Shown: piece by piece, positions 3,932 to 62,021 of the stretch
How the letters are laid out: the number at the start of each line of letters is the position of its first letter
Numbering within the stretch: the stretch's first letter is position 1
Assembly: GCA_907163375.1 (NCBI GenBank)
Contig: CAJQUW010003219.1
Location: 124,001 to 188,000, forward strand
DNA: 64,000 nucleotides
Reading direction: 5' to 3'
From: Prostheceraeus crozeri
Lineage: Eukaryota > Platyhelminthes > Polycladida > Euryleptidae
The notes under the pieces: generated by a model
What the model saw: only the letters and a program-made list of their open reading frames with translations
Databases searched by the model: none
Told to the model about the DNA's origin: nothing
Made by a program: the position numbers and the translations under genes

Positions 3932-3965
3932 AAAGCATCATGTTGGAATAAAAATTGTTTTTATT
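3927..3965. terminator. Convergent polyadenylation signals (element A)
   Basis: AATAAA on + at 3,927 (overlapping the protease stop) and 3,947, and TTTATT (AATAAA on -) at 3,960-3,965, sit between two convergent genes. The arrangement recurs in B at 30,496-30,531 and in C near 49,570-49,607. Confidence 0.6.
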
Positions 3966-13309: not shown

Positions 13310-13549
13310 TTATAGCGAGGAAAAGTCAAGCGGAAGAACCTTTAAGTCATTGTAGACTTTGTAGCACCTTGGACGTTTAGCGGCATCGGGGGCTCTTCTC
13401 ACGCGCGTTGTTTTCGGTGTCCACTCTTCATCTATCCAGACAATTCTTACAGTCTTGCCCTTTTCGCAAGTCTCCTCCTGATCACACTTGTCTTCATCAC
13501 ACCACTCATTGACGATCACAAAATTACATGGTGTTTCTGAGTTTGTCAT
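13310..13549 (-). CDS. Small conserved protein, left arm of inverted pair (element A)
   Basis: 79 residues from ATG 13,549. The central to C-terminal part (KGKTVRIVW, TPKTTRVRRAPDAAKRPRCY, KVYNDLKVLPLDFSSL) closely matches the gene at 13,713-13,964 in the opposite orientation. Acidic first half, basic middle. No counterpart at this place in B or C. Family not recognised. Confidence 0.65.
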   Translation of the reverse strand: MTNSETPCNFVIVNEWCDEDKCDQEETCEKGKTVRIVWIDEEWTPKTTRVRRAPDAAKRPRCYKVYNDLKVLPLDFSSL

Positions 13550-13712: not shown

Positions 13713-13964
13713 ATGATGGAAGGTACATCTCCCGCCTTAGAGATTTTCAACAAAATATTTGAAGTGGTTGACGAGTGGGACGAAGAGCTTGATCTGAAGG
13801 AGACTTGTGATAAAGGCAAGATTGTGCAAGTTGTGTGGAGTAATGGCGATTTTACACCGAAAACAACGCGCGTGAGAAGAGCGCCCAACGCCCCAAAACG
13901 TCCAGGGTGCTACAAAGTGTACAATAACTTAGAGGTTATTCCGCTTGACTTTTCCTCGCTATGA
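13713..13964 (+). CDS. Small conserved protein, right arm of inverted pair (element A)
   Basis: 83 residues (start ATG 13,713 or 13,716), paralogue of the 13,310-13,549 gene: KGKIVQVVW, TPKTTRVRRAPNAPKRPGCY, KVYNNLEVIPLDFSSL. A TATAAAAG box lies at 13,668-13,675. Both copies keep an open frame while neighbouring genes have decayed, which argues for recent use or recent duplication. Function unknown. Confidence 0.7.
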   Translation: MMEGTSPALEIFNKIFEVVDEWDEELDLKETCDKGKIVQVVWSNGDFTPKTTRVRRAPNAPKRPGCYKVYNNLEVIPLDFSSL

Positions 13965-14190
13965 AGTATATGCGCTTCAATTATAAATAAACCTACATAC
14001 TACATGTCTTTGTTTTGCAATGTGCTTATCTAGAAATGGAAATAAATGGAGGAATTTAGATATGGGGTTAGTTAACACATTTATCATCGGTCTACTTTTC
14101 TATCAAAAGAGATCGCACCATTAGAGAAGATAGTGATTTTGTATACGTGTGGTGTAAGAGTGACCTCCCATTTCATCCCCTCATCATTTA

Positions 14191-14207
14191 GCCTCAATGA
14201 TAGAGGC
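14191..14207 (+). other. Conserved hairpin downstream of rightward small gene (element A)
   Basis: GCCTC-AATGATA-GAGGC. The stem differs from B/C (GTCTC/GAGAC) by a paired change, with the loop conserved. The stretch 13,965-14,536 around it holds no gene. Confidence 0.55.
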
Positions 14208-14536
14208 AGTTCTTAAAAGAACTCATGACTCATTCTCAGATAACGTTCGCAATGGAGAATTTAAAAAGTAACCTGTGGCAGGTAGCTAAGACTCAACCGA
14301 TTGGCGTTCAAAGTGCTACGTTGAGAACTGTGTCAAATGCCCAACATGAGTTGCCACAGAGGTTTTGGTCTAAAATATGACACACTCCCTTGCCACACTT
14401 ATCACTACGATATCATCCGCTGTCTCAAAAGAGATCGCCCACCAACAGAAAGAATTATACCGAAATCCTCCTTAACATGCAACGTTAAAGTTGACTGATA
14501 GAAGATACAACTTTATGATTATATTTTATATTTGTA

Positions 14537-14604
14537 TGATAGATTCAGTCAGACCGAAGTCTGTCCAGGGCAAACCACGTGGAGGTACTATCATATTTTG
14601 CCCC
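14537..14604 (-). ncRNA. HDV-like self-cleaving ribozyme R1 (element A)
   Basis: 68 nt on the minus strand, beginning 50 bases after the stop of the small gene at 14,655. P1 is GGGGCAA with TTGCCCT (7 bp, G-U at the cleavage site). P2 is TGATAG with CTATCA. P3 is ACC with GGT around loop TCCACGT. GG follows for P1.1. P4 is CAGAC-TTCG-GTCTG with a cUUCGg tetraloop. J4/2 contains the expected C but reads CUGAA rather than CGAA. The P4 stem differs from B/C by compensating changes, which supports a selected RNA structure. Cleavage is predicted just 5' of 14,604. Confidence 0.85.
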
Positions 14605-14654
14605 ATGGTGGTCTTTAAAAAGACCGTTGGTTCGTTCTCGGGAAATGAATAGAC

Positions 14655-14921
14655 TTAGGTTTGGCCGATTCCGCTGAGAGAGACTTGTAATCTCTCTATG
14701 TCAGCGGCATCGACCTCCTCTACTATAAGCTGACTATTAGAGGGCGGTATATACCCCCACTCTGTTGAATTGGCATCATCGTCAGTTATTGATGAGCCAA
14801 TTCGAGCAAGGTTGTTATAGACTCGCTGTCGCTCCTCCATCTCTAGAAGCTCAATAATTAAATTTCTCGGTCTAAGCCGAGGCTTGTCAGGAGAGCTGAC
14901 TGTCGTCTTAGGTGTTTTCAT
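14655..14921 (-). CDS. Small conserved protein (element A)
   Basis: 88 residues: MKTPKTTVSS, RLRPRNL, RVYNNLARIGSS, EVDAADIERL, LSGIG. Homologous to 40,413-40,679 in B and absent from C. Short basic N-terminus, then a helical, acidic part. Ribozyme R1 follows the stop by 50 bases. Function unknown. Confidence 0.72.
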   Translation of the reverse strand: MKTPKTTVSSPDKPRLRPRNLIIELLEMEERQRVYNNLARIGSSITDDDANSTEWGYIPPSNSQLIVEEVDAADIERLQVSLSGIGQT

Positions 14922-15006
14922 GATGGAGTATAGAATGAAAATGAAAGAGAGGCAATGGTTTAATACCCCTCTGATACAAAGACATGACTCAGTCTTTCTA
15001 ATTATG

Positions 15007-15073
15007 TGATAGATTCAGTCAAACCGAAGTCTGTCCAGGGCAAACCACGAGGAGGTACTATCACTCTTGCTCC
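15007..15073 (-). ncRNA. HDV-like ribozyme R2, probably degenerate (element A)
   Basis: Same fold as R1: P2 TGATAG/CTATCA, loop TCCTCGT, P4 CAGAC-TTCG-GTTTG with a G-U pair, same CUGAA J4/2. P1 reads GGAGCAA against TTGCCCT, so one A-C mismatch falls in the helix next to the cleavage site. It starts about 58 bases after the predicted last stop of the coiled-coil gene. Confidence 0.75.
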
Positions 15074-15130
15074 GTGTGCCTCTTAAAAGAGCCGTTTGGG
15101 GCGCTCTCGGGATCAAAAGCGATCCTACTG

Positions 15131-16271
15131 CTAATGTAAAAACTCTGAAAGGAAAAAAACAGGAGATTAGATGCGGTAAGGAAATGATCATGTTGAAGTA
15201 ACTTACTGGGCACTTTCTTCCGGACTTTTCGGACGACGAAGTTCTCAAGCTCGCCGGTGATGTCCATGTTTATGTGGAGACATCGGACTCCGTCGCCCTC
15301 GTAGCAATGCTGCGTCTGATTGGGGTCGCTTGTTATTGTCGGTACATCACACATATTATTTTCGAAGAGGGGAAGATGGACTTCATGCACTCTTCTTTTT
15401 CTACACTTCTCACGCTCATGCAATCGCTCCACTTCAGCCACCAACCCCTTGTTCACACCCTTCACTTCCTCTGTTTCCTTCACCACGCTTCGCATTCGAT
15501 CTATCTCATCATCCTTCCTCAACAAATTCGCCTGCAGACTACTCACCAAACTTGCTTTCTTCATCAGCTCACTCCTTTCCGCCATCCACTCTTTATCCTT
15601 CTGCCTCATACTTTCCAACTCTTCTCTCGTCACCTTATACCCTTCAGCCTTCGCAGTCAACTTCTCATTCTGAATCACTAGTACTTTATTCTTCTCCTCA
15701 ACCGCCCTCAATCGATCCTTCATCCTTACATATTCATCCCTCGTGTTCCCTTCATCCCTCCGAGGCGATGATGCCGCCAACGGCTTACCCACTTCCTTTC
15801 CCTCATCCTTTTTCTTCTCCTGAAGATCACCAATGTTCCCAAACAATTCCTCCAACACGTCATCCAAATCAACATCAACATCAGGCTTCTTGATGTCACC
15901 TCTCAACTCCACTTCTTCCTCACTGAAACCCTCATCAGTCGCCTTAGTAACACCTTTCTTCCCCACAGCACCCTCAATCGTCGCCACTGCCACTCTTACC
16001 TTTTCCATATCTAGTAAAACTCCCTCAAACCAAGACTCCTGCATTAAACCCCTGCATACTAATATTGCCACTAGGGCACTGGCTATGGTTCCTCTACATC
16101 ACTCCCATCCTCACATACCGCTCTATGATGCATACACACCCTCAACAACACTTTCCTCACATGCTCGCCCACCGTCCCCTCATTAATGTGCTTTTTGAGC
16201 TCGCTGCCTCTTGCAATACGGCCACAGCTACACTTGCCGATAAGCATTCGTGCATTGATCATCTTAGTCAT
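15131..16271 (-). CDS. Zinc-finger / coiled-coil protein, spliced (element A)
   Basis: ATG 16,271 lies just after an acceptor (CTATCTTTACAG). The N-terminus is KCSCGRIARGSELKKHI, a Cys/His finger. A frame change before 16,071 fits an intron (GTATGT donor on - near 16,115) or a frameshift. From 16,071 the frame runs through an acidic part (DVDVDLDDVLEELF) and a long Glu/Lys/Arg coiled coil (15,780-15,430). A GTAAGT...TTTCAG intron (15,145-15,206) leads to a short last exon with stop TAG 15,131-15,133. Sequence differs greatly from the B and C versions. Confidence 0.65.
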
Positions 16272-21866: not shown

Positions 21867-22680
21867 AGTAGTAAGTAAAACTCCACCACTGGACCGCGCA
21901 AGATGGCCGCCGTCGCTGACGTCCCCCCCCCTCCTGTCAGTCGAGTCGGTCGTGGTGTGCCGCCGTGTTGCTTCGAGTCTGACGTCCCCCCCTCTGGCCG
22001 GCCGTCGTAGCGCGAGGTGGTGTGTGATGCGCTCTCCAGGTTGGCGTGGTGTGCCCGCCAGGTTGGGAGGGTGGACTGTCGTAGCTCACCTGAAAAAATC
22101 CTAAGTGTCAGAGTGGCTTTGTATGGGTAAAATTTTGAAAATTTTCCAAAGTGTGGCATTTCGAACTTTACCAAAACATTTTTCATCAAATTTCGCTGAC
22201 CCCCCCCCCCGACAGCAATCTTCTAACTTTGGTTCTAGTAGACGGATTTTGTCTTACAGCTACTCGTTTGAAACAGGAGAAAAAACTGCTCGGTGAGATT
22301 TTTGTCGCGAGTCAATCAGACCAGCCGTTCAAAAGTTAGAGCTGTTGCAAGATTTTAGGTCGGAGCTCACCTGAAGAAATCCTAACTGTCAGAGTGGCTT
22401 TGTGTGGGCAAAATTTTGAAAATTTTCAAAAGTGTCGCATTTCGACCTGGGACCTTTACCATAACAGTTTCCATCAAATTTCACCGACCTCCCCCCCCCT
22501 CGGCACCGATCTTCCAACTTTGCTTCTAGTGGACGGATTTTGTCGTGCAATAGCTCGTTTGAAAGCTAAGAGTAAGACAAATTCACTGAAAAGAACGGCT
22601 TGTTCCTATCTGTCTTCGTTTAGATGTGAGACGCCATTTAAGATTTTGGGAGATTGGCGAAAAACGACAGAGTTAGAATT
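21867..22680 (+). repeat. Left terminal inverted repeat of element B with subterminal repeats
   Basis: The outer 50 bases are the inverse of 43,576-43,625. Further in, 22,500-22,680 is the inverse of about 43,013-43,190. Inside lies a direct repeat of period about 281 (the block starting AGCTCACCTGAA at 22,083 and again at 22,364). Poly-C runs (GACGTCCCCCCC) are repeated. No coding region is evident; short open frames here are incidental. Confidence 0.88.
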
Positions 22681-30500: not shown

Positions 30501-30531
30501 AAACATCATGTTGGAAAAATTGTTTTTTATT
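30496..30531. terminator. Convergent polyadenylation signals (element B)
   Basis: AATAAA (+) at 30,496-30,501 overlaps the protease stop; TTTATT (AATAAA on -) at 30,526-30,531 overlaps the TBP-like stop. Two convergent genes share a 30-base termination zone. Confidence 0.6.
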
Positions 30532-31072
30532 TTACAATCCGCTGGGTACGTACATACTCGATGAGATAGTCTAGGATCACATTTGCTTGTACATGAGATT
30601 TTAGTCCAGTAATGATCACTTTACTATTATGAAAGATTGCCACATGCACAGGTAACCAACAACTAATGAGAGCTGCAGGAAAAAGTTTGGGTTCATAACA
30701 CAAATTGTAACTGCTGTTACGAATCTTCAAAAATGATACACTTTCACTCAATTGAGTAGAGATCACCATATAGTCCACAGTCAGATTCGACATCACACAC
30801 CTCTCCCTCTTCCATATCCGACGTAGTAGTCTTTGTAGCTCTAAGCGCATTGACTGCGCCGATGAATGAGAAAGGGCGCCGAGAATCTGTACAGTCCCAT
30901 TTGGGAAGAGTTGAAGATTCCGTGAATTGTTCATCTTCACCACTAACATTTGAGGACGGCCCGGGTAATACTTGCTGTTTGGAAGGTGTTGGTGTAATGT
31001 TGTGAGATCGATTTTGGTGTAGAGTCTGATGCGACGGAGAATGTTGACGATGGTGTAGCGATGGCGCTTCAT
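30527..31072 (-). CDS. TATA-binding-protein homologue (element B)
   Basis: 181 residues from ATG 31,072, the size of the TBP core. First repeat: YTIVNI, KIDLTTL, YYPGRPQMLVVKM, FPNGTVQILGA. Second repeat: SNLTVDYMVISTQL, CYEPKLFPAALISCWLPV, HVAIFHNSKVIITGLKS, ANVILDYLIEYV. These line up in order with eukaryotic TBP (IVNI; KLDLKTIA; YNPKRF; IFSSGKM; SSYEPELFPGLIY; SGKVVLTGAK). It overlaps a longer PC4-like frame for 329 bases. Likely directs transcription of element promoters; DNA binding not shown. Confidence 0.82.
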   Translation of the reverse strand: MKRHRYTIVNILRRIRLYTKIDLTTLHQHLPNSKYYPGRPQMLVVKMNNSRNLQLFPNGTVQILGALSHSSAQSMRLELQRLLRRIWKRERCVMSNLTVDYMVISTQLSESVSFLKIRNSSYNLCYEPKLFPAALISCWLPVHVAIFHNSKVIITGLKSHVQANVILDYLIEYVRTQRIVK

Positions 31073-31394
31073 GATGAAAAAATGAGTAAATTGAGCGATG
31101 TACCTTCCTTTTATACTTTTCCCAACTACCCTGATGAAATGTGAAGTTAGTATGAAGTTGGGAATGATAGAGTTGAATTCGCCAATTGTTGACGCGCAAC
31201 CATATTCGATTTCCAATACGTGAATGTCTTTTCATATAGAAGTATTTCAAATCCTTCATGATATGATGTAGAGATTGAAAATGACGATAAGATAAAGCAA
31301 ACTCTCTTCTCACATTTCCAGTTGAATCTTTGAAATAGACGTTTCGATCATGATCCGTTTCAATACGTTGTAGGGAATCTAATTTCCAACTCAT
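30744..31394 (-). CDS. PC4-like protein with overprinted C-terminus (element B)
   Basis: 216-residue frame from ATG 31,394. Residues 1-105 (RNVYFKDSTGNVRREFALSYRHFQSLHHIMKD, WLRVNNWRIQLYHS, WEKYKRKVHRSI) are paralogous to the next gene and loosely resemble PC4/Sub1. The remaining 110 residues are read in a frame overlapping the TBP-like gene and are rich in Ser, Thr, Pro and acidic residues, like an activation tail. The same overlap is open in C, while A has the two fused. Real translation of the tail is uncertain. Confidence 0.55.
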   Translation of the reverse strand: MSWKLDSLQRIETDHDRNVYFKDSTGNVRREFALSYRHFQSLHHIMKDLKYFYMKRHSRIGNRIWLRVNNWRIQLYHSQLHTNFTFHQGSWEKYKRKVHRSIYSFFHHEAPSLHHRQHSPSHQTLHQNRSHNITPTPSKQQVLPGPSSNVSGEDEQFTESSTLPKWDCTDSRRPFSFIGAVNALRATKTTTSDMEEGEVCDVESDCGLYGDLYSIE

Positions 31395-34940: not shown

Positions 34941-37900
34941 TTATGACAATACATCTCCTGAATGTGGTAGCGTGAGTTTTATTCTTTTGGGTGGAGGTAT
35001 GTTTGTGTCAGGATGTCCATGTGGAAGAGATGTGTTATGTCCTATCCAACACCTCTTATCTTCCCATGCTGAAAGCGCTCGTTTCTTGAACGTGTGCGTT
35101 TTCACAGTATGAACTTGAGATTTTAAGATTGTCATATTGACAAACGTTATAGTTTTATTTTTATAGGCCTTCTTATAGGACCGATGTTTCATTTTGTGAA
35201 CAATGGATTTTGATATACCTTTAGCACGCTTAATACTATCTGCACATTCTTTTAATTTCATGGAATACATTTTAGGACAGAGGAGAATCATTTCATCTAT
35301 TTTTCATCTATTTCCTTTCCTGCTGTTTCATCCTTAAAACAACCAAGTTTGGCTTTATTCTGTATGGAATAGAGTGGATGAGTGGGATTGTAGCTAGATG
35401 TGTCGAAATATTTTTCTAATGACTTAGCTACTTCATTAAAATTTAAATCTTTTTGAGTGGTAATTCCTAAAAAGAAACTATCTGTATCACCACCCAGCAA
35501 GCGAACCTCTTTTACGAGAGGGCATGGTTTTAATATTTTGTAGAAGAGTTGATACATTTCAAGCTTGGAATAATCTAAAACGGCTTGCCCAATATAGATG
35601 GGTTTGCACAACTCAACTTCAGATTTTATCATTTTAACACCTACAAGATCCTCATCGATAATGTCTCTATCAATGAAAAGAGGTGATGAGGTCAATTTGT
35701 GATATTTTTGATCATCAACGACTAGTTTGTAGTTCATACGTTTTCTAACATCCTCCATGGTCTTTCCGAAAAGACTGTTATTCTTATATTTATAAAAATC
35801 CTTTTCAAAATTATTTTGGGCGAGTGCACGTTTTTGACTGTTACTATCTATTTAAGGTTTGAGGAAGGCTTTCTGTCTAAATTTGATAATGCGGTGAACT
35901 GACTTTAGAAGCATGCCCATTTCTAAAAAGAATTTTAGTATGCAGAAGTGCACGAGATAATTTTTCTTATCATATTGGGTGAGTAAAAGTTTGCGGCATG
36001 GTTTATACCTTGGCTGTCCATACTCTCTTAAGTTATTATGAAATTGTGGCATGAATGGTGAAAACATATCTTCAGTCACTTCACCAGATTCAGGTGCGAC
36101 TGGGAAATCAGCAGTTTTATTTTTGATACTATTTGGATAAATCAAATCCACTTCAAAATGATATCCCCAATCACCTTCATCTGGAATCTTCAGAATGCTT
36201 GAAGGGTTGGAGTAATACGCATGCTCATCTTGATTTAACCAACTAAACTCGGAATGAGGTAGTGGTTTAGACAGTGAACTGCCATATAAATTATTTTGGT
36301 CATAGTATTTTAGGTGGATATGATCATTACCTACTGTTTTAGATTTTATGTGATGTTTATTCACAAATGTGAGACCACCGCATATTCCGCGCTCAAATAT
36401 GTTATACATCTCGGGGTCTTGTAAGAGATGGATGGTCTCACCAGTCATTTCAAAGGCTGATCTAAAGGACATGGCTGGTAGACTGACAAAGTGGACAGGA
36501 TCTAATTTGTCTTCTTCTAATGCCACTCGTCGAAATTCCTGAAAGACATCAGCCACCAAAATGACATCTAATTCTAAGTAAGCGATCATATAATCGACAA
36601 ACGTTTTACAATCAAATTCTAGCCATGCCTCTTGAGCATGTTCATAGTCCTCTACTGGACAATCTTGACCCGTCAAATCGTTTTGGAATTTGTCAATGGA
36701 AGGAAAGGTTGTTTCAATTAGTTTAGACATTGAGCTAAAATACGCATAGGGAAAGACTCCTTTGCGAGTGATTATTTCATCCGTTAAGTTTGGATAGTGT
36801 TTCTTCAAAGTTTGACTATGAGTAAGAAACTTGAGATTACGAACGAGAGAAGCTAGTGACGCTGACATGAATTGGAATGAATCTAAAAATTTTATTTCGA
36901 AGAAGACTGTCTTATTTTCTTTAGTTTTATCTACTGGTACTTTTGCTGTCATTGCCATGAATTTTTCTCTCGTTTGCGCTATTACATTAAACTGCCACGA
37001 TTTCATCTGGCTCAACCTTCCTTTTATGAGCATATGACTGTCATAGCCCTTAAAGTTATGAAAAATGACGGGTAGCACACGACGTCTCAACCTAAGTGAA
37101 AAGTTACATTTGGAGCAGAGTGCGTTTCTAAATTTACCAGTGATGTGATCATGATCACACACTTTCTCAATTTTATCGTCATCAAACGTTTTATGACATT
37201 TAGGGCACGATGTGCAACTTTTAAATTTTTGTTTGTCTTCATCTGACATATGTAGTGACTTATGCTGCAATTGGAAATCATATGATTGTTGAAATTTGGC
37301 AGCTCTATCGAGAAATTCTAGAAATTTTGAAATGCAATCTTCACCTTGCCAAGTATGCACTTTGTTTTGCCTATTCCTAAAGTGGTCATGCCATACTTCA
37401 ATAGCAGGATATGGCTGCTGGCTTGTGGATGATATCATCAATGTAGCATTCTATGTCTGCGTAAATGACACGCAGGGGACTTAATTCGTCACCATTATCC
37501 CTATGTGAAAATATTTTATCTTCGGGCATGCGTTCCATTTGTAATTTACCTCGCTTGCACCATTCATAGTGAGTTTCAAATTTATCTTTACTCCAAAATG
37601 AGCGGATGCAGCGGTCGCATACAAAATGTTCACCTCTTCTATAGTGCCCCAAGTGAGTGTACAAGCGAGAGATTTTGGGAATACCACAGTAGTGCCATTC
37701 CTCGCTATCATCTTGTTTTACTAATAAGAGGTTGACTACACGTTCATAACAAGTTGAACGTGAATTATAGCGGGCACCCTTCAACCCCTTCTCCCACACG
37801 TGAACGACAATTTTAATCTTATTATGTTTTTCGAACGTTTCTACATCTTTGATTTTCATGTTGTTACTATCACATCCTTCAAAGACTAGTTCATCCTCCC

Positions 37901-38927
37901 ACTGTGTATAGCTATAGGTGCGATCTCGATGCGCGTTGATATCATTATAGTGAAGGATGGATAGGACTGCATATTTGAAACACTGCGATTTACAATCGAC
38001 ATTGATGACAGCTTTCTTATTATACAACGTTTTTGGTAGTTTAAATGTGCCTCGAGCTGCATGACTTTCTAATAGGGAAATTTTGAACATGGCTGAGTCC
38101 ATGCCATCAAAAATGAGAGCGCTGTCGCGTTGATTGAATTTATCTACATTTGATTTTAAACATTGAATGTGAAAATTTAGCCAAGACTCGCAGTCTACAA
38201 CTTCGGTTGCGGAAGAGGAAGGAACATGAAACTGTATTCCCTCCGTCACTTGACCCGTTTGAAAATCTATTTTAATATATTTTAGTTTAAGGTAGATGAG
38301 CGCCTTCATTCTAAAATTGTCTAAATTGTTGAAGAGCGCTTCGATAATGGTAGAATTTTGAAGGAGCCACTCAGGAAAATCTACTATTTGAGTATTGGAC
38401 TCCATGCAGTAGTCGCGTACTAAATGACTATGGGAAACGTTAATGAGGGAGATTGTAGAGGTACCGTTGGTGTAGTGATCATTTACATGCGTGTGTTGAA
38501 GTCTGTGCGAAGATCGCTGAAAGTGACTATCAAAAGAAAGAGGGCACAAATCGCAAGGAAAGGAGATGTCATCGTCAGAATCAACTTCACCTCCGGAGAT
38601 TGATGCCGCTTTGCGTTGACACACACGTTGTTTGATGTGTCGAAGGAGACTGTGCTTCCTTGGAAACATATGTCCGCAGTCGGCACATTCCCACTCGTTG
38701 CCTTGTCGCGAGAGTCCTGAGCTAGAGCTAACATCACCTGAAATAGAAATCATTCTATCATCTCTGTTCAAGTCTCAGTGTATTGTTACAACCTACCTTG
38801 ACTCAACAGCTCTAAACTTTCGTCGAGAAGGGAGGGCTTTGGTGATGAAGTAGATGACTGAAATTGAGGAAGATGCTATTAGCCACACGTTTGAGGGAGA
38901 TGAATGAAGAAGTCTTCAACTTACCAT
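34941..38927 (-). pseudogene. polB: Protein-primed family B DNA polymerase, spliced, broken (element B)
   Basis: Exon 1 is only ATG (38,925-38,927); intron 38,858-38,924; exon 2 38,797-38,857; intron 38,738-38,796; exon 3 from 38,737. About 1,286 codons. Two N-terminal C2H2 fingers and a third (CDRCIRSFWSKDKFETH). Exonuclease motifs YADIECYID, FHNFKGYDSH and LELDVILVADVFQ. Polymerase motifs YYDQNNLYGSS, NNSLFGKTMEDV, GGDTDSFF (near 35,485), LCPKMYS. A one-base insertion (near 37,403), TAA (35,852) and an 11-12-base duplication (near 35,300) disable it. Confidence 0.93.
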
Positions 38928-39675: not shown

Positions 39676-40297
39676 TAAATTTTTATTTCGTATTATCTTT
39701 GCTTTCATACTGACTTGAATGGGGCTTCAGTGGATGATTTAACCATGCATACTTTTTCATTTGGAAATAGTAGCACACTTAGTTTAACTTGCAAATCTTA
39801 TAACATTTCATATGGGTAATAATGGTAGATGAAATAGTGTTAAATAAAATTAAGATAGCTTACATGATTCTGGGATAGCAATCGACTGCGATCCATGTGT
39901 AAAGAGCTTGTTAGACTACGGAAGGGAGAAGTGTGATATGTTGCGTGTGGCGCGTGAGTGTCCTCCCATTTCATTCCATTCATCAATTCGTCTCATTGAT
40001 AGAGACAGGTAGAACTCATGGTTCTCATAACGTATGCAATGGAAAGTTTATAAGGCAACCTTCGACAGCTGGCTAAATGTCGGCCTGGCGTGAATGCATA
40101 TTACGTTGAGACAGAGGCAATCACTTGCAAACATGACGCAGAGAGGTTTAACAAGATTGACCATTGCCGAATGTCCCTTGCGGTATACATAGCTACGGGT
40201 TTCACCGCCGCCCTTTACAGGAACGCCCGTCGAAAGGAAGTATTACACCGAACTTCATTTGCAACGTTCAAGTTGACTGATAGCAGATTCAACTTAA
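39676..40297 (+). other. Gene-free segment with conserved structure (element B)
   Basis: No gene seen. Matches C (58,407-59,028) closely and A (13,965-14,536) in blocks: the TCCTCCCATTTCAT block, the hairpin at 39,990, AAGGCAACC-TGGCTAAA, and CAACGTTCAAGTTGACTGATAG next to the ribozyme. Block conservation suggests an untranslated region with RNA structure. Confidence 0.5.
39990..40006 (+). other. Conserved covarying hairpin (element B)
   Basis: GTCTC-ATTGATA-GAGAC, 315 bases after the acidic-protein stop. A has GCCTC/GAGGC and ACCTC/GAGGT stems with the loop kept. Confidence 0.55.
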
Positions 40298-40365
40298 TGA
40301 TAGTATTCGCCAGTCCGAAGACTGCCCAGGGCAAACCGTGAGGAGGTTCTATCATGTCTTGCCCC
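40298..40365 (-). ncRNA. HDV-like self-cleaving ribozyme R3 (element B)
   Basis: 68 nt on the minus strand, 48 bases after the stop of the small gene. P1 GGGGCAA/TTGCCCT with G-U at the cleavage site; J1/2 GACA; P2 TGATAG/CTATCA; P3 ACC/GGT with loop TCCTCAC; GG for P1.1; P4 CAGTC-TTCG-GACTG with cUUCGg; J4/2 GCGAA with the catalytic-type C followed by GAA, as in the HDV ribozyme. All elements of the nested double pseudoknot are in order and canonical. Predicted cleavage 5' of 40,365. Confidence 0.92.
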
Positions 40366-40412
40366 ATGGTGGCCCTTATCTGACCCGGTGGTTCGTTCTC
40401 GTGACCGTCATC

Positions 40413-40679
40413 TCACTTCATACCGATTCTGCTGAGAGAGAGTCGAAACCGTTCAACATCAGCAGTGTCGACTTCCATGCTAGTTGGTATGTGAGTGTAG
40501 AGTGGAATGTAGCGCCATTCCATTGGATTGGTAACACTTGCTGTCATCGCATTGCCAATCCGAGCAAGATTGTTGTGGACTCTGTTTTGCTCCTCTATTC
40601 TAGCAAATTCATTAGATAAATTTCGCGGTCTTAACTGCGGTCCGCGAGGAGAGCTGACTGCAGCGTTTGATGTCTCCAT
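40413..40679 (-). CDS. Small conserved protein (element B)
   Basis: 88 residues: METSNAAVSS, LRPRNLSNEF, RVHNNLARIGNAM, EVDTADVERFRLSLSRIG. Homologous to 14,655-14,921 in A. TATATAAA on - at 40,711-40,718 is its likely TATA box. Missing from C, apparently through recombination between flanking ribozyme repeats. Function unknown. Confidence 0.72.
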   Translation of the reverse strand: METSNAAVSSPRGPQLRPRNLSNEFARIEEQNRVHNNLARIGNAMTASVTNPMEWRYIPLYTHIPTSMEVDTADVERFRLSLSRIGMK

Positions 40680-40710: not shown

Positions 40711-40718
40711 TTTATATA
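40711..40718 (-). promoter_or_regulatory. TATA box of the small leftward gene (element B)
   Basis: TATATAAA on -, about 32 bases before the ATG at 40,679, so the gene is transcribed on its own and ribozyme R4 lies outside its mRNA. Confidence 0.6.
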
Positions 40719-40770
40719 CCCCTCTAACGCGACGCAACGTTCAAGTTGACTGATAGCAGATTCAACTTAA

Positions 40771-40856
40771 TGATAGTACTCGCCAGACTAAAGACTGTGG
40801 CCAGTCTAAAGACTGCCCAGGGCAAACCGCGTGGAGGTTCTATCATGTCTTGCCCC
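40771..40856 (-). ncRNA. HDV-like ribozyme R4 with duplicated P4 hairpin (element B)
   Basis: 86 nt. P1 GGGGCAA/TTGCCCT, P2 TGATAG/CTATCA and loop TCCACGC as in R3, but the P4 region holds two successive hairpins (CAGTC-TTTA-GACTG, then a weaker CAGTC-TTTA-GTCTG). J4/2 reads GCGAG instead of GCGAA. It lies about 60 bases after the predicted stop of the coiled-coil gene. Probably weakened or inactive, or a natural two-P4 variant. Confidence 0.78.
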
Positions 40857-41138
40857 ATAGTGGCCCTTATCAGAGGCGTTTGTGGCGTTCTCGGGGTGTG
40901 GGATAGGGACTCAGACTCAGGCTTGCCGTCTAGACTGCGGCTCCCGCAACGGGGCGGGTCGTCGCTTCTCTTGGATGTCTGTAAAGAAAGAAGTAGTGAG
41001 TTATCATCTTACATTTTAATTTAGTCATTTTTGCTTACAGATCTTCTTGGGCGCTTCCTCATAAAGGAAATTCGAGATCAGATCACGATGATCGAAGGTG
41101 AAGTGTAGACACTCCACCCCTTTCTTCACCCGAGAGTA

Positions 41139-43012: not shown

Positions 43013-43625
43013 CAAAATTCTAACTCTGTCGATTTTCGCCAATCTCCCAAATCTTAAATGGCGTCTCACATCTAAACGAAGACAGATAGGAACAAGCCGT
43101 TTCTTTCAGTGAATTTGTCTCACTCTTAGCTTTTAAACGAGCTATTGCACGACTTTCTACGATCACTAGAAGCGAAATTGGAAAATCGGTGCCGTGGGGG
43201 GGGGTGGACGTCAGCGAAAATTTTTTTCTTTCCGATTGCTTTCAAATTCACCATACAGATGCAGAATTTCACGCTGAATCCGAATCTGGCGTCTGTTTTC
43301 CCATCCGATGCTTCGTTTTGGCGCTACAGCCCAAAACGTCCAAAATTTTACCTCTGTCCTTTTTTCGAAGTTGAACATTTTTTCTCGCCGATTGCTTTCA
43401 AATCCACCATACCGATGCAGAATTTTAAGCTGATCACGAATCTTAAGTCCGTTTCACCATTCCACCACGACAACCTAGACGGTCGCCCACGTCAACCTAG
43501 GCGGTCGCCCACGTCAACCCACCCGAGGCCAACTAACACTCTCGTTTTCGAGGGGGGGACGTCAGCGACCAATTTTCGACGGCGGCCATCTTGCGCGGTC
43601 CAGTGGTGGAGTTTCCCTTACTACT
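43013..43625 (-). repeat. Right terminal inverted repeat of element B
   Basis: Inverse of the left repeat, including the outer AGTAGTAAG end and the ATGGCCGCC block. The left copy lacks about 11 bases present here just inside that block. The segment around GCTACAGCCCAAAACGTCC is repeated within the region. No gene seen. Confidence 0.88.
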
Positions 43626-49602: not shown

Positions 49603-50148
49603 TTATTTTACAATCCGCTGGGTACGTACATACTCGATGAGATAGTCTAGGACCACATTTGCTTGTACATGAGATTTTAGTCCAGTAATGATCACTTTAC
49701 TATTATTAAAGATTGCAACATGCACAGGTAACCAACAACTAATGAGAGCTGCAGGAAAAAGTTTGGGTTCATAACACAAATTGTAACTGCTGGTACGAAT
49801 CTTCAAAAATGATACACTTTCACTCAATTGAGTAGAGATCAGCACATTGTCCACAGTCAGATTCGACATCACACACCTCCCCCTCTTCCATATCCGACGT
49901 AGTAGTCTTTGTAGCTCTAAGCGCATTGACTGCGCCGATGAATGAGAAAGGGCGCCGAGAATCTGTACAGTCCCATTTGGGAAGAGTTGAAGATTCCGTG
50001 AATTGTTCATCTTCACCACTAACATTTGAGGTCGGCCCGGGTAATACTTGCTGTTTGGAAGGTGTTGGTGTAATGTTGCGAGATCGATTTTGGTGTAGAG
50101 TCTGAAGCGACGGAGAATGTTGACGATGTTGTAGCGATGGCGCTTCAT
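49603..50148 (-). CDS. TATA-binding-protein homologue (element C)
   Basis: 181 residues from ATG 50,148, nearly identical to B, with both TBP repeats complete (KIDLATL, YYPGRPQ; SNLTVDNVLISTQL, CYEPKLFPAALISCW, SKVIITGLKS). Changes from B are scattered and conservative. Overlaps the PC4-like frame as in B. Confidence 0.82.
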   Translation of the reverse strand: MKRHRYNIVNILRRFRLYTKIDLATLHQHLPNSKYYPGRPQMLVVKMNNSRNLQLFPNGTVQILGALSHSSAQSMRLELQRLLRRIWKRGRCVMSNLTVDNVLISTQLSESVSFLKIRTSSYNLCYEPKLFPAALISCWLPVHVAIFNNSKVIITGLKSHVQANVVLDYLIEYVRTQRIVK

Positions 50149-50470
50149 GATGAAAAAATGAGTAAATTGAGCGATGTACCTTCCTTTTATACTTTTCCCA
50201 ACTACCTTGATGAAATGTGAAGTTAGTATGAAGTTGGGAATGATAGAGTTGAATTCGCCAATTGTTGACGCGCAACCATATTCGATTTCCAATACGTGAA
50301 TGTCTTTTCATATAGAAGTATTTCAAATCCTTCATGATATGATGTAGAGATTGAAAATGACGATAAGATAAAGCAAACTCTCTTCTCACATTTCCAGTTG
50401 AATCTTTGAAATAGACGTTTCGATCATGATCCGTTTCAATACGTTGTAGGGAATCTAATTTCCAACTCAT
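49820..50470 (-). CDS. PC4-like protein with overprinted C-terminus (element C)
   Basis: 216-residue frame identical in layout to 30,744-31,394. The N-terminal PC4-like module matches B residue for residue over long stretches. The overprinted Ser/Thr/Pro tail also remains open. Confidence 0.55.
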   Translation of the reverse strand: MSWKLDSLQRIETDHDRNVYFKDSTGNVRREFALSYRHFQSLHHIMKDLKYFYMKRHSRIGNRIWLRVNNWRIQLYHSQLHTNFTFHQGSWEKYKRKVHRSIYSFFHHEAPSLQHRQHSPSLQTLHQNRSRNITPTPSKQQVLPGPTSNVSGEDEQFTESSTLPKWDCTDSRRPFSFIGAVNALRATKTTTSDMEEGEVCDVESDCGQCADLYSIE

Positions 50471-54016: not shown

Positions 54017-57000
54017 TTATGTCAATACATCTCCTGAATGTGGTAGCGTGAGTTTTATTCTTTTGGGTGGAGGTATGTTTGTGTCAGGATGTCCATGTGG
54101 AAGAGATGTGTTATGTCCTATCCAACACCTCTTATCTTCCTATGCTGAAAGTGCTCGTTTCTTGAACGTGTGCGTTTTCACAGTATGAACTTGAGATTTT
54201 AAGATTGTCATATTGACAAACGTTATAGTTTTATTTTTATAGGCCTTCTTATAGGACCGATGTTTCATTTTGTGAACAATGGATTTTGATATACCTTTAG
54301 CACGCTTAATACTATCTGCACATTCTTTTAATTTCATGGAATACATTTTAGGACGGAGGAGAATCATTTCATCTATTTCCTCTCCTGCTGTTTCATCCTT
54401 AAAACAACCAAGTTTGGCTTTATTTTGTATGGAATAGAGTGGATGAGTGGGATTGTAGCTAGATGTGTCGAAATATTTTTCTAATGACTTACCTACTTCA
54501 TTAAAATTTAAATCTTTTTGAGTGGTAATTCCTTTTCCTTTTCCATAATCCTTTTCAAAATTATTTTGGGCGAGTGCACGTTTTTGACTGTTACTATCTA
54601 TGTAAGGTTTGAGGAAGGCTTTCTGTCTAAATTTGATAATGCGGTGAACTGACTTTAGAAGCATGCCCATTTCTAAATAGAATTTTAGTATGCAGAAGTG
54701 CACGAGACAATTTTTCTTATCATATTGGGTGAGTAAAAGTTTGCGGCATGGTTTATACTTTGGCTGTCCATACTCTCTTAAGTTATTATGAAATTGTGAC
54801 ATGAATGGTGAAAACATATCTTCAGTCACTTCACCAGATTCAGGTGCGAGTGGGAAATCAGCAGTTTTATTTTTGATACTATTTGGATAAATCAAATCCA
54901 CTTCAAAATAATATCCCCAATCACCTTCATCTGGAATCTTCAGTATGTTTGAAGGGTTGGAGTAATACTCAAGCTCATCTTGATTTAACCAACTAAACTC
55001 GGAATGAGGTAGTGGTTTCGACAGTGAACTGCCATATAAATTATTTTGGTCATAGTACTTTAGATGGATATGATCATCACCAACTGTTTAACATTTTATA
55101 TAATGTTTATTTACAAATGTGAGACCACCGCGGATTCTGAGCTCAAATATGTTATACATCTCGGGGTCTTGTAAGAGATGGATGGTCTCACCAGTCATTT
55201 TAAAGGCTGATCTAAAGGACATGGCTGGTAGACTGACAAAGTGGACAGGATCTAATTTGTCTTCTTCTAATGCCACTCGTCGAAATTCCTGAAAGACATC
55301 AGCCAGCAAAATGACATCTAATTCTAAGTAAGCGATCATATAATCGACAAACGTTTTACAATCAAATTTTAACCATGCCTCTTGAGCATGTTTATAGTCC
55401 TCTACTGGACAATCTTGACCCGTCAAATCGTTTTGGAATTTGTCAATGGAAGGAAAGGTTGTTTCAATTAGTTTAGACATTGAGCTAAAATACGCATAGG
55501 GAAAGACTCCTTTGCGAGTGATTATTTCATCCGTTAAGTTTGGATAGTGTTTCTTCACAGTTTGACTATGAGTAAGAAACTTGAGATTACGAACGAGAGA
55601 AGCTAGTGACGCTGACATGAATTGGAATGAATCTAAAAATTTTATTTCGAAGAAGACTGTCTTATTTTCTTTAGTTTTATCTACTGGTACTTTTGCTGTC
55701 ATTGCCATGAATTTTTCTCTCGTTTGCGCTATTACATTAAACTGTCACGATTTCATCTGGCTCAACCCTCCTTTTATGAGCATATGACTGTCATAGCCCT
55801 TAAAGTTATGAAAAATGACGGGTAGTACACGACGTCTCAACCTATGTGAAAAGTTACATTTGGAGCAGAGTGTGTTTCTAAATTTACCAGTGATGTGATC
55901 ATGATCACGCACTTTCTTCATTTTATCGTTATCAAACGTTTTATGACATTTAGGGCACGATGTGCAACTTTCAAATTTTTGTTTGTCTTCATCTGACATA
56001 TGTAGTGACTTACGCTGCAATTGGGAATCATATGATTGTTGAAATTTGGCAGCTTTATCGAGAAATTCTAGAAATTTTGAAATGCAATCTTCACCTTGCC
56101 AAGTATGCACTTTGTTTTGCCTATTCCTAAAGTGGTCATGCCATACTTCATAGCAGGATATGGCTGCTGGCTTGTGGATGATATCATCAATGTAGCATTC
56201 TATGTCTGCGTAAATGACACGCAGGGGACTTAATTCGTCACCATTATCCCTATGTGAAAATATTTTATCTTTGGGCATGCGTTCCATTTGTAATTTACCT
56301 CGCTTGCACCATTCATAGTGAGTTTCAAATTTATCTTTACTCCAAAAGGAGCGGATGCAACGGTCGCATACAAAATGTTCACCTCTTTCAGAGCGCCCTA
56401 AGTGTGTATACAAGCGAGAGATTTTGGGAATACCACAGTAGTGCCATTCCTCGCTATCATCTTGTTTTACTAATAAGAGGTTGACTACACGTTCATAACA
56501 AGTTGAACGTAAATTATAGCGGGCACCCTTCAACCCCTTCTCCCACACGTGAACGACAATTTTTATCTTATTATGTTTTTCTAACGTTTCTACATCTTTG
56601 ATTTTCATGTTGTTACTATCACAACCTTCAAAGACTAGTTCATCCTCCCACTGTGTATAGCTATAGGTGCGATCTCGATGCGCGTTGATATCATTATAGT
56701 GAAGGATGGATAGGACTGTGTATTTGAAACACTGTGATTTACAATCGACATTGATGACAGCTTTCTTATTATATAACGTTTTTGGTAGTTTAAATGTGCC
56801 TCGAGCTGCATGACTTTCTAATAGGGAAATTTTGAACATGGCTGAGTCCACGCCATCAAAAATGAGAGCGCTGTCGCGTTGATTGAATTTATCTACATTT
56901 GATTTTAAACATTGAATATGGAAATTTAGCCAAGACTCGCAATCTACAACTTCGGTTGCGGAAGAGGAAGGAACATGAAACTGTATTCTCTCCGTCACTT

Positions 57001-57676
57001 GACCCGTTTGAAAATCTATTTTAATATATTTTAGTTTAAGGTAGATGAGCGCCTTCATTCTAAAATTGTCTAAATTGTTGAAGAGCGCTTCGATAATGGT
57101 AGAATTTTGAAGGAGCCACTCAGGAAAATCTAGTATTTGAGTATTGGACTCCATGCAGTAGTCGCGTACTAAATGACTATGGGAAACGTTAATGAGGGAG
57201 ATTGTAGAGGTACCGTTGGTGTAGTGATCATTTACATGCGTGTGTTGAAGTCTGTGCGAAGATCGCTGAAAGTGACTATCAAAAGAAAGAGGGCACAAAT
57301 CGCAAGGAAAGGAGATGTCATCGTCAGAATCAACTTCACCTCCGGAGATTGATGCCGCTTTGCGTTGACACACACGTTGTTTGATGTGTCGAAGGAGACT
57401 GTGCTTCCTTGGAAACATATGTCCGCAGTCGGCACATTCCCACTCGTTGCCTTGTCGCGAGAGTCCTGAGCTAGAGCTAACATCACCTGAAATAGAAATC
57501 ATTCTATCATCTCTGTTCAAGTCTCAGTGTATTGTTACAACCTACCTTGACTCAACAGCTCTAAACTTTCGTCGAGAAGGGAGGGCTTTGGTGATGAAGT
57601 AGATGACTGAAATTGAGGAAGATGCTATTAGCCACCCGTTTGAGGGAGATGAATGAAGAAATCTTCAACTTACCAT
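54017..57676 (-). pseudogene. polB: Protein-primed DNA polymerase, catalytic core deleted (element C)
   Basis: Exons as in B: ATG 57,674-57,676; 57,546-57,606; third exon from 57,486. The 590-residue N-terminal part is intact to TGA near 55,746 (Trp in B), with further stops near 55,086 and 54,140. At 54,530-54,545 about 200 codons are deleted (from EKDF to TTQKDLNF), removing the NNSLFGKT and DTDS motifs. Cannot polymerise DNA. Confidence 0.93.
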
Positions 57677-58406: not shown

Positions 58407-58720
58407 TAAATTTTTATTTCGTATTATCTTTGCTTTCATACTGACTTGAATGGGGCTTCAGTGGATGATTTAACCATGCATACTTTTTCATTTGGAAATA
58501 GTAGCACACTTAGTTTAACTTGCAAATCTTATAACATTTCATATGGGTAATAATGGTAGATGAAATAGTGTTAAATAAAATTAAGATAGCTTACATGATT
58601 CTGGGATAGCAATCGACTGCGATCCATGTGTAAAGAGCTTGTTAGACTACGGAAGGGAGAAGTGTGATATGTTGCGTGTGGCGCGTGAGTGTCCTCCCAT
58701 TTCATTCCATTCATCAATTC

Positions 58721-58737
58721 GTCTCATTGATAGAGAC
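58721..58737 (+). other. Conserved covarying hairpin (element C)
   Basis: GTCTC-ATTGATA-GAGAC, identical to B; the surrounding 58,407-59,028 contains no gene and mirrors B. Confidence 0.55.
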
Positions 58738-59028
58738 AGGTAGAACTCATGGTTCTCATAACGTATGCAATGGAAAGTTTATAAGGCAACCGTCGACAGT
58801 TGGCTAAATGTCGGCCTGGCGTGAATGCATATTACGTTGAGACAGAGGCAATCACTTGCAAACATGACGCAGAGAGGTTTAACAAGATTGACCATTGCCG
58901 AATGTCCCTTGCGGTATACATAGCTACGGGTTTCACTGCCGCCCTTTACAGGAACGCCCGTCGAAAGGAAGTATTACATCGAACTTCATTTGCAACGTTC
59001 AAGTTGACTGATAGCAGATTCAACTTAA

Positions 59029-59096
59029 TGATAGTATTCGCCAGTCTAAAGACTGCCCAGGGCAAACCGCGAGGAGGTTCTATCATGTCTTGCCCC
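59029..59096 (-). ncRNA. HDV-like self-cleaving ribozyme R5 (element C)
   Basis: 68 nt on the minus strand, 115 bases after the coiled-coil stop (about 55 after splicing out a leader-like GTAAGT...TTTTCAG intron, 59,140-59,200). P1 GGGGCAA/TTGCCCT; P2 TGATAG/CTATCA; P3 ACC/GGT; L3 TCCTCGC, the same heptamer as in the HDV genomic ribozyme; GG for P1.1; P4 CAGTC-TTTA-GACTG; J4/2 GCGAA. The best match of the five to the HDV consensus. Predicted cleavage 5' of 59,096. Confidence 0.92.
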
Positions 59097-59210
59097 ATGG
59101 TGGCCCTTGTCAGAGCCGTTGGTTCGTTCTCGTCGCATCTGAAAATAGAAAGAAAATAGATGAAATTATATTCAAGTGATAGAGTTGATATTAACTTACT
59201 ATCAATTAAC

Positions 59211-60312
59211 TTAATCGGTTCGTTGAACTTTGGATTGTGGTGGCTGAGGCAAGTATTTGGCCGGCAACTTCCGCTTGCGGTGGCGCAATTCCTTGATATC
59301 GCCATCATGTTTTATTGAGAGATGAAGGCAGCGCATCACCGCCATCGCCCCATCGTAGCACTCGAACGTGGTGTCCAAGTCCTCACTCTCAAGGATGACG
59401 CTGTCGACGATTCTGCTCTTGATGACGGGAATGTGGAGCGTTGTTCGTATCTCCTCTTTCTTCTGGCTCTCAGTCAGGCTAGTCTTTAGTTGCTCGATTT
59501 TTAACTTTGACACCTCTTCCTGAGCTTTCAGTGATTTTATGTACGTCGCCTGCTCTTCAACTCGTTTCTCGCTGGCAAGCACCCTTTCGCGGAAAGGTTC
59601 CAAGTTAATTACTTGGGTCTTGAGGGTCCGAATCTCGGCTACCTGACCCTTCAGGTGGAAATTGTCATCCCTAAGGGCCGAACATTCGTTTTTGTAACGA
59701 GTGAGCTCATCTTTTAATTTCGTGAGTGCATATTCCTGGCTCACTTTTGCGATCTGGGTATCCTTATTCCAGCTGTTCATCTGCTGCTTAATCCCCTTCT
59801 TTACTGGGGAAGGTGCGATCACTTTCTTTATCGGGGAAGACTGATTTACCGGTTTTCCTGTCTCTTCCGCGTTTTTATTGATGACGACCTCCTCAAAATC
59901 GGAGTCATCTGAGCTGTCCAAATCGCTTAGTAGGGCCTTCTCTTCTGCTGTCGATGAGGTAGTGACCGAAGCAGCAGGTTCCAAAATTGTTGCAATAGCC
60001 TCTTGTAGTGCTGCGTCTAAATCGACTGTTGCTTCTTTGAAGTAGGGTGTGATCAATTTGCCGATGTCTGATGTTGTATAATTACTAGCCTTCTTGATCG
60101 GACATTCGGCGTGGGCGATGTAAAATGCCTCATGGTCCTTGCCTTTCAAAAATTTCAGGCAATGTGTGCAGCCGGAAATAACGGCTCTTTCCTCGTGAAG
60201 GTGAGGAGTATTTGTATTTTTTGTATTTGTTAATGTGGCGTTTAAATTCGCCGCCTCTCTTAATCTCTCCACAAGAGCACTTTTTGAATAAAAATTTTGA
60301 GTTGCCTCCCAT
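59211..60312 (-). CDS. Zinc-finger / coiled-coil protein (element C)
   Basis: ATG 60,312 follows acceptor TTTCTTTCTACAG. Starts KCSCGEIKRGGEFKRHI (finger, like A), then changes frame before 60,272 (intron or frameshift). The main frame has CTHCLKFLKGKDHEAFYIAHAEC (C-C-H-C), an acidic stretch (LLSDLDSSDDSDFEEVV), a long coiled coil (YALTKLKDELTRYKNEC to LKTSLTESQKKEE) and a basic end (ELRHRKRKLPAKYLPQPP). It shares architecture, not sequence, with B. R5 lies in its 3' untranslated region. Confidence 0.65.
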
Positions 60313-61089: not shown

Positions 61090-62021
61090 TATCTCCGGTT
61101 CTAGTGCTCCGATGGAGCTGAAAATTCACCATCAACGTGTAGAATTTGATGCTGAATCCGAATCTGCCCTCCATTTTCCCATCCGATGCTTTGTTTTGGC
61201 TCTACAGCCCACAGCCATCGCAAAAATTGTAACTTGTCGTTTTTCGGAAAAATGAAGAAATATTTTTTCTCTCCGATTGCTTTCAAATTCACCATATAGA
61301 TGCAGAATTTCACGCTGATTCCAAATCTGAAATCCGTTTTGCTCTCCGATGCTTCGTTTTGAGGCTACAGCCCAAAACGTCCAAAATTCTAACTCTGTCG
61401 TTTTTCGCCAATCTCCCAAATCGTAAATGGCGTCTCACATCTAAACAAGGACAGATAGGAACAAGCCGTTTCTTTCAGTGAATTTGTCTCACTCTTAGCT
61501 TTCAAACGAGCTATTGCACGACTTTCTACGATCTCTAGAACCAAATTTGGAAGCAACGCTGCCGGGGGGGGGACATCCCTGCACCATACCGATGCAGAAT
61601 TTGACGCTGAATCCGAATCTGGCCTCCGTTTTCCCATCCGATGCTTCGTTTTGTATCTACAGCCCAAAACTAACCCAAATTCGCCGTTAACTCTGTCGTT
61701 TTTCCGAAAAATGTTGAAAATTTTTTCTCGCCGATTGAGCTGGAAATCACACCACAGATGCAGAATTTGACGCTGAGTCCAAAAATCACATTTGCAAAGT
61801 CCTCCGAGCACTGCTTCCACTCGAAACATCCCATTTTCACCCCAAAATTTATCAGATTTCATGAAAATCCTAACACACTATAGCACCAAGTCAAAACCTG
61901 GCGGTCACCCAAGTCCACCACGACACTCTGTCGTTTTATCGAGGGGAGGGGGGGACGTCAGCGAACATTTTTTGGCGGCGGCCATCTTGCGCTATCCAGA
62001 AGTGTAGAACTCCTTACTACT
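61090..62021 (-). repeat. Right terminal region of element C with subterminal repeats
   Basis: Carries repeated blocks built on GATGCTTCGTTTTG and CTACAGCCCAAAAC, the AAACGAGCTATTGCACGAC motif, poly-G runs next to ACGTCAGCG, and GGCGGCGGCCATCTTGCGC before the terminal CCTTACTACT. It is related to B's right end but clearly diverged, unlike the internal genes. No gene seen. Confidence 0.82.

Follow-up and report, generated by a model that had tools for sequence, protein, structure and literature searches.

Self-cleaving ribozymes beside histone-type stem-loops at Polinton gene ends: a putative route to histone-type mRNA 3' ends

In the prevailing view, the mRNAs of animals acquire their 3' ends by two main routes, namely cleavage with polyadenylation, or a U7/CPSF-73 cut after the histone stem-loop, and the tail of histone mRNA reads ACCCA. 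Self-cleaving ribozymes of the HDV-like kind are carried by RTE retrotransposons. They were also described for the retrotransposons R2 and L1Tc in the literature excerpts available. CPSF-73 cleaves histone pre-mRNA under the guidance of U7 snRNP, for which a downstream element serves, and the 3' end of histone mRNA falls just after the hairpin (PMC1924863). For the theta ribozymes of gut phages, the available text proposes the processing of tRNA 3' trailers (PMC10879173), and for type-P1 twister ribozymes a conserved core and a U-A cleavage step are given in the excerpted sources (RF03160; PMC5408937). A ribozyme and the histone stem-loop are mentioned in the available portion of a work on designed hammerhead ribozymes (PMC13264038).

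The window studied here, a single stretch of 64 kb, had been described in an earlier note as holding HDV-like ribozymes inside a Polinton, a combination regarded there as unreported, and no paper in the open-licence PMC literature searched joined both. No paper combining histone stem-loop, ribozyme and transposon was found in the same literature, and its titles and abstract openings, as far as listed, contained no report of a natural ribozyme-histone stem-loop combination. The histone stem-loop, the gene context and the alternative twister ribozyme were absent from the earlier note, and they turn the sighting of a ribozyme into a likely mechanism. As far as can be judged from sequence, the Polinton ribozymes quite probably replace U7/CPSF-73 and generate histone-type mRNA 3' ends.

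HDV-like ribozymes in three related Polintons

Three related copies of the element were delimited by direct repeats and inverted terminal arms, copy A at about 1-17 kb, copy B at 22.5-43.2 kb and copy C at 43-61.5 kb. Inverted terminal repeats were present (arms I2 and I3), a DNA_pol_B_2 domain was detected in copy C (PF03175, E 7e-7), and copy B encoded an integrase with rve and a chromodomain. The Ulp1-type protease ORF of copy B scored just below its Pfam cut-off, ATPase-like ORFs also stayed below theirs, and capsid proteins were not recognised by Pfam or PHROGs among the ORFs tried. Read from this gene content and these termini, the elements are classed as Polintons.

Copies B and C resembled a tandem array with a common middle terminal repeat (22485-22649, 43046-43210 and 61415-61553). 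The polymerase region (37398-38771, 35852-37441 and 55745-57520, minus strand) encoded an endonuclease VII domain, accompanied by a C2H2 zinc finger that scored under its cut-off. The copies also carried a TATA-binding protein gene (30527-31216, 49603-50292 and 3961-4854, minus strand). In A and in B its product matched PF00352 (E about 1e-17), and the protein of copy C was 95% identical to that of B. A protein search returned 10 relatives on short contigs with 41-77% identity, and the abstract openings listed from the open-licence PMC literature contained no report of a Polinton with a TATA-binding protein.

Five minus-strand HDV-like copies, R1 to R5, had been proposed, and rereading of the sequence reproduced their positions to within 1 nt. 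The full double pseudoknot claimed for R3 and R5 was recovered, whereas the P2 given as 6 bp pairs up to 7 bp in R5, and the count of two intact copies rose to three because R1 was likewise complete. The intact ribozymes were R5 (59028..59096, minus strand), with cleavage predicted between 59097 and 59096, R3 (40297..40365, minus) and R1 (14536..14604, minus; J4/2 ACTGAAT). From its 5' end R5 comprised GGGGCAA (P1), GAC, ATGATAG (P2), A, ACC (P3), TCCTCGC (L3), GGT (P3') and TTGCCCT (P1'), followed by GG, G, the P4 hairpin CAGTC-TTTA-GACTG, GCGAATA (J4/2) and CTATCAT (P2'). R2 (15006..15073, minus) had a single P1 mismatch (A-C), and R4 (40770..40856, minus), with a duplicated P4 hairpin and J4/2 GCGAG, was probably defective. 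The HDV consensus around the catalytic C of J4/2 is CNRA; the catalytic C was found in GCGAA of R3 and R5 and in ACTGAA of R1 and R2, and R4 failed. The compensating change in P4 from CAGAC/GTCTG to CAGTC/GACTG between copies was borne out by the alignments.

The proposed check with an HDV pseudoknot descriptor was favourable. In its strict form the descriptor matched R1, R3 and R5 only (at 14604, 40365 and 59096 of the 64-kb window), and no match occurred on either strand of 228 dinucleotide shuffles. A looser form allowing one mismatch hit seven places in the window, three of them outside R1-R5, and yielded 2.4 matches per shuffle (20 shuffles), so it was dropped as unspecific and the strict form alone was taken as informative.

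The companion check with Rfam covariance models gave a mixed outcome, R5 being matched under the gathering scores. R5 scored 28.3 bits with RF02682 (E 7e-4 in 131 nt; gathering 44), 26.6 bits with RF00094 (E 0.02 in 131 nt; gathering 50) and 15.3 bits with RF00622 (gathering 35). Over the whole 64 kb the E-value of R5 was 0.33, R4 reached 23.5 bits (E 4.1), the HDV families gave no entry for R1, R2 or R3 up to an E-value of 10, and no Rfam family reached its gathering score anywhere. In 651 nt, R1 alone matched the CPEB3 model (15.6 bits, E 0.33). With its scores below gathering, R5 is classed as HDV-like on structural grounds and is not assigned to an Rfam family. Taken together, the presence of HDV-like ribozymes within Polintons was upheld by sequence, structure and covariation, with weak backing from Rfam. 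No sixth module was found in the window by the RNA model, except one weak match at 14127-14237 (E 0.2).

By eye, a further hairpin was seen soon 3' of R1, R2 and R5 (about 14485-14535, 14975-15005 and 59000-59027, minus strand), formed by AAAGTTG/CAACTTT, AAAGAC/GTCTTT and AAGTTGA/TCAACTT respectively, with the structure kept and the sequence differing. The last module was followed by a conserved block, some 350 nt in length and apparently non-coding (58633-58983 and 39902-40252 of the window, minus strand; 2358-2706 in the genomic locus L013), and the same block also adjoined a twister-type element (L120, 1079-1465).

Histone-type stem-loops and gene layout

A histone 3' stem-loop or its remnant lay directly 5' of the cleavage site at each of R1 to R5. 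The stem-loop of R1, GGTCTT-TTTA-AAGACC (14610..14625, minus strand) followed by ACCAT, scored 30.4 bits with Rfam Histone3 (E 1.1e-6 in 651 nt) and was the top RNA-family match of the 64 kb (E 1e-4), with the R5 ribozyme second. That of R2, GGCTCT-TTTA-AGAGGC (15078..15093, minus) with 5/6 pairs and the 4-nt tail ACAC, scored 20.4 bits (E 0.006 in 651 nt); the gathering score of the family (RF00032) is 34. R5 was preceded by GGCTCT-GACA-AGGGCC (59102..59117, minus), a 6-bp stem with the non-canonical loop GACA, and by the 5-nt tail ACCAT from the stem to the cleavage site (59097..59101, minus). The stem-loop of R4, GCCTCT-GATA-AGGGCC (40862..40877, minus), formed 5/6 pairs, and the decayed one of R3, GGGTCA-GATA-AGGGCC (40371..40386, minus), 4/6, all six pairs being kept in R1 and R5 only. 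The gap from stem to ribozyme was 5 nt in R1, R3, R4 and R5 (ACCAT; ACTAT in R4) and 4 nt in R2. Strict hairpins occurred twice in the window, both times at ribozymes, compared with 0.16 in window shuffles. The features of RF00032 (6-bp stem, 4-nt loop, ACC tail and CCAAA-like 5' flank) were displayed by R1 and by genome copies of R2 type.

The source genome (2.05 Gb, 14,165 contigs) contained 14,739 copies of the ribozyme core 12-mer GGTTTGCCCTGG and 16 of its reversed control. Forty loci (L009-L048) were chosen among 100 listed places of the 12-mer, together with L001, L003 and L008, and the RNA model gave 124 matches in 67 sources (the window, the core loci and 20 loci picked by stem-loop score). 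After removal of six matches from duplicate loci, 118 modules (79 distinct) were retained, 100 from the window and core-picked loci and 18 from loci picked by stem-loop score. A hairpin, defined by at least 5/6 pairs or by 5/5 (5-6 bp), was present in 109 of the 118 modules; all nine misses fell within the core-picked and window set (91/100 there), and these fractions describe listed or best-scoring copies because the places were not randomly drawn. From stem end to cleavage site the 109 modules measured 5 nt (n = 88), 4 nt (n = 17), 2 nt (n = 3) or 9 nt (n = 1). In L009-L048, 68 strict hairpins were counted, and the descriptor ribozyme began exactly 5 nt on in 60 of them; seven of the remaining eight had the same ribozyme bearing one to few changes, and one had a twister.

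The nine modules without a scorable hairpin comprised two decayed ones, of which one was R3, and seven that stood first in their arrays and had none (L012, L024, L028, L031, L032, L039 and L040). A twister was observed further 5' in L031 and L032, and no twister was found upstream in the stretches inspected of L012/L058, L024, L028, L039/L057 and L040.

In the reverse test, Rfam Histone3 was run over the genome with 75 of 295,389 candidates scored, and 52 matches were obtained. An HDV-like ribozyme followed at 18 of the 20 places examined among these 52 (67-100 bits with the RNA model), in some cases damaged by changes in P1 or by a deletion (e.g. L062-L064 and L068). Nine genome places exceeded the gathering score of 34, and seven of them were stem-loop plus ribozyme modules. 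At L059 and L060, the two best-scoring stem-loops of this genome search, no ribozyme was found, and no histone frame was seen by eye in about 400 nt upstream. The evidence base of this census is one genome; in a viral contig collection, no stem-loop-ribozyme relative was retrieved with a PolB piece, the TATA-binding protein alignment or stem-loop-ribozyme patterns.

We regard it as unlikely that the ribozyme forms the 3' end and the hairpin is an exonuclease roadblock or folding insulator that is not bound by SLBP. Terminal 3' hairpins protect RNA in general, and a CUUA loop is unusual for most animals. The commonest loop among the modules was CUUA, with a few CAUA, GACA and GAUA, as against the usual UUUC/UUUA, which counts against a histone-type function, as do the non-canonical 15-nt hairpins found beside twister ribozymes. 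However, hairpins of R1 type and R2 type matched Histone3 including the flanks, the tail had the length seen in histone mRNA, and the host encodes SLBP. A single contig gave two matches to the SLBP RNA-binding domain, one of 52.7 bits over model positions 34-69 and one of 32.9 bits over positions 1-37, the latter interrupted by a TGA, as may happen at an exon edge. CUUA is, moreover, a natural histone loop in C. elegans, for which the available excerpts list CTTT/CTTA loops and CUUA in four H2B genes. A histone-type end carrying an SLBP-binding hairpin is therefore the reading preferred here.

The modules terminated tandem monocistronic genes. In copy C, R5 stood at the 3' end of the gene 1 ORF (59211..60272, minus strand; 353 aa, no Pfam family above cut-off), and a probable 3'-UTR intron, GTAAGT...TTTTCAG (59139..59199, minus), was recognised from sequence between its stop and the stem-loop. 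Gene 2 of copy B (40413..40679, minus; 88 aa) lay between R4 and R3 with a TATATAA box at 40712..40718 (minus), and gene 2 of copy A (14655..14921, minus; 88 aa) lay between R2 and R1, its stop 29 nt before the stem-loop; the gene 1 ORF of copy A read unspliced for 336 aa (15061..16071, minus). In the genomic locus L013, one strand carried gene 1 (348 aa), gene 2 (88 aa) and gene 3 (83 aa) in succession, each ending in a stem-loop and a ribozyme. The stem-loop of gene 1 was preceded by a probable 3'-UTR intron, TATATAA stood before gene 2 and again before gene 3, and a convergent ORF came after the last module. Among the 99 modules with enough context, 76 had an ORF of at least 70 aa ending within 230 nt. 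The stop was located 26-36 nt upstream of the stem-loop in 43 of 46 gene 2/gene 3 modules, and 93-159 nt upstream, intron included, in 27 gene-1-like modules; three others fell outside this pattern.

At L008, gene 3 and its ribozyme module were tandemly repeated every 519 nt to give four modules. Copy A held two inverted gene-3 relatives (13310-13549, minus; 13713-13964, plus). In each of them the ribozyme module was replaced by AATAAA, 21 nt past the stop.

This layout disfavoured a reading in which the ribozyme serves the downstream RNA, releasing the 5' end of the transcript that follows and aiding its translation as in R2 retrotransposons, which we consider very unlikely. The HDV-like ribozyme of R2 does sit at the 5' end of the element, according to the excerpts available, and two of the three modules of L013 have a gene after them. 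Against it, a TATA box was in reach of 51 of the 99 modules, exactly at +120 or +168 after cleavage in 39, and the next ATG mostly followed 32 or 41 nt past the box, which places the ribozyme 5' of where transcription probably starts. The last module of L013 was without a sense gene after it in the stretch examined, and this reading leaves unexplained why a stem-loop precedes the ribozyme. The module is accordingly read here as the 3' end of the gene before it.

Twister ribozymes at the same place and pair-preserving changes

At L032, behind a gene-1 relative, the sequence directly 3' of a canonical histone stem-loop (Histone3 28.3 bits, E 2.2e-6) matched twister-P1 with 41.5 bits (E 3.4e-8 in 221 nt), and the sequence of L031 started inside the same twister. 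Genome-wide, twister-P1 (RF03160) gave 38 matches with 62 of 85,252 candidates scored, and none reached the gathering score of 67.2 (best 57.1 bits). The assignment to twister is thus made by E-value and core (P1, P2 and P4 as in RF03160), not as a gathering-level member, and a gathering-level Rfam scan of 15 loci returned nothing, the twister and stem-loop appearing there by E-value only. Among the 20 places examined of these 38 matches, 19 belonged to a second family. The hairpin stem ended exactly 6 nt before the U-A step in 15 of the 20 (ACCCAU in 11 of these 15), and five were without a hairpin; in a shuffled control, in which any such hairpin within 8 nt was counted, it appeared in 67 of 1000. 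The hairpins of this second family measured 15 nt and closed with an A-U pair at their foot, for which reason they are called histone-like rather than proven histone stem-loops, and they may not bind SLBP. One element of the second family had a terminal sequence in common with the window Polintons, in the same order. That either an HDV-like or a twister ribozyme can occupy this place speaks for selection on the cut itself, made there.

A stem-loop-twister pattern was found in four viral stretches and 15 stretches of a prokaryote collection, none with a histone stem-loop by eye. One of the pattern matches, L084, resembled a phage twister.

The pairing of the modules was evaluated in two alignments. 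In 23 aligned modules 96.0% of cells were paired, with 24 double changes compared with 7 in shuffles, and further pair types showed no excess (13 vs 13.4 in shuffles). In 81 distinct modules, whose alignment had been fitted to the RNA model, 95.3% of cells were paired and 70 cells had changed on both sides compared with 19 in shuffles, and when the partners were slid the paired proportion was 23-51%. A count of the pairs that showed any double change was non-discriminating, with 7 in register, 7 at a slide of +2 and 8 at a slide of +3. Double changes affected five of the six stem-loop pairs, P1 (G-C to A-U) and P4 (U-A to A-U), and P2 in the 23-module alignment. Since shuffles ignore relatedness, weight was given to the proportion of cells that paired when the partners were slid and to the change of ribozyme class.

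Least credible of all is the notion of decaying DNA, in which ribozyme and hairpin were co-inherited from one ancestor and spread by copying with no present function, for although many copies are near-identical, so that their conservation carries little information, and the window copies are partly decayed (R2, the R3 hairpin and R4 are damaged), pair-preserving changes between subfamilies occurred in stem-loop, P1, P2 and P4, two unrelated ribozyme classes stood at one place, and the gene 2/gene 3 frames remained long in 46 of the 99 modules with context.

A putative 3'-end module and known systems

The arrangement suggests a composite 3'-end module consisting of a stop codon, a short 3' UTR, a histone-type stem-loop, about 5 nt and a self-cleaving ribozyme. 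Once the module has been transcribed by RNA polymerase, the ribozyme would fold and cut just 3' of the stem-loop, and the resulting mRNA would end, as does replication-dependent histone mRNA, in a 6-bp hairpin and a short tail (ACCAU) with no poly(A). Host SLBP would bind the hairpin and support export, stability and translation, and the ribozyme would take the place of the U7 snRNP/CPSF-73 complex and its downstream element. The element would gain 3' ends independent of the host cleavage complex, in compact genes, and its expression could be coupled to S phase or to further conditions rich in SLBP, for instance eggs. The sequence shows the ribozymes, the stem-loops, their almost constant spacing, the order of the genes, the exchange of ribozyme class and a host SLBP; cleavage in cells, binding by SLBP, the lack of poly(A) and the coupling to the cell cycle are what we infer from this arrangement. 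Self-cleaving ribozymes leave a 2',3'-cyclic phosphate, and histone mRNA has a 3'-OH.

A wider version appears somewhat favoured on balance. According to it, a Polinton lineage repeatedly recruited ribozymes of the unrelated HDV-like and twister classes for a cut just past a captured histone stem-loop, by which its terminal genes would yield SLBP-bound, poly(A)-less mRNAs without U7/CPSF-73; together with the element's own TATA-binding protein, this would give control of both transcript ends and coupling to host DNA replication. If the proposal holds, the ribozyme-made histone-type end would be a natural third route to mRNA 3' ends, and HDV-like and twister ribozymes, few of whose roles in eukaryotic genomes are known, would gain a directly testable job. 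The module also hints at how Polintons may time gene expression, and a compact, protein-free 3'-end cassette would be of practical interest.

Compared with described systems, the Polinton ribozymes resembled those of R2, RTE and L1Tc in being double-pseudoknot ribozymes on a mobile element. They differed in place: the retroelement RNAs have the ribozyme at their 5' end, whereas those of the Polintons were found at the 3' ends of genes in a DNA virus-like transposon, beside a histone stem-loop and with up to four per array among the loci examined (L008). In the available portion of the literature, theta ribozymes come closest as a functional precedent, being likewise small, HDV-like and described as making RNA 3' ends instead of host nucleases; they are proposed to act on phage tRNAs, whereas the Polinton modules would act on mRNAs of a eukaryotic element with a hairpin that is likely protein-binding. 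The twister matches had the conserved core and U-A step of RF03160, as far as the excerpted sources describe it, and differed in the adjoining histone-type hairpin at Polinton gene ends. With the 3' end of histone mRNA (RF00032) the modules had in common a short 3' UTR, a 6-bp stem, a 4-nt loop and an end few nt past the stem, but a ribozyme occupied the place where histone genes, by the accessible text, use a U7/CPSF-73 site, and the genes were non-histone. The elements agreed with known Polintons/Mavericks in PolB, an rve integrase with chromodomain and terminal inverted repeats, to which the ribozyme 3'-end module and the TATA-binding protein gene are additional here. In this way, the parts belong to known kinds, and the composite, a ribozyme-made histone-type mRNA end as proposed here, fits no kind that is known or was found.
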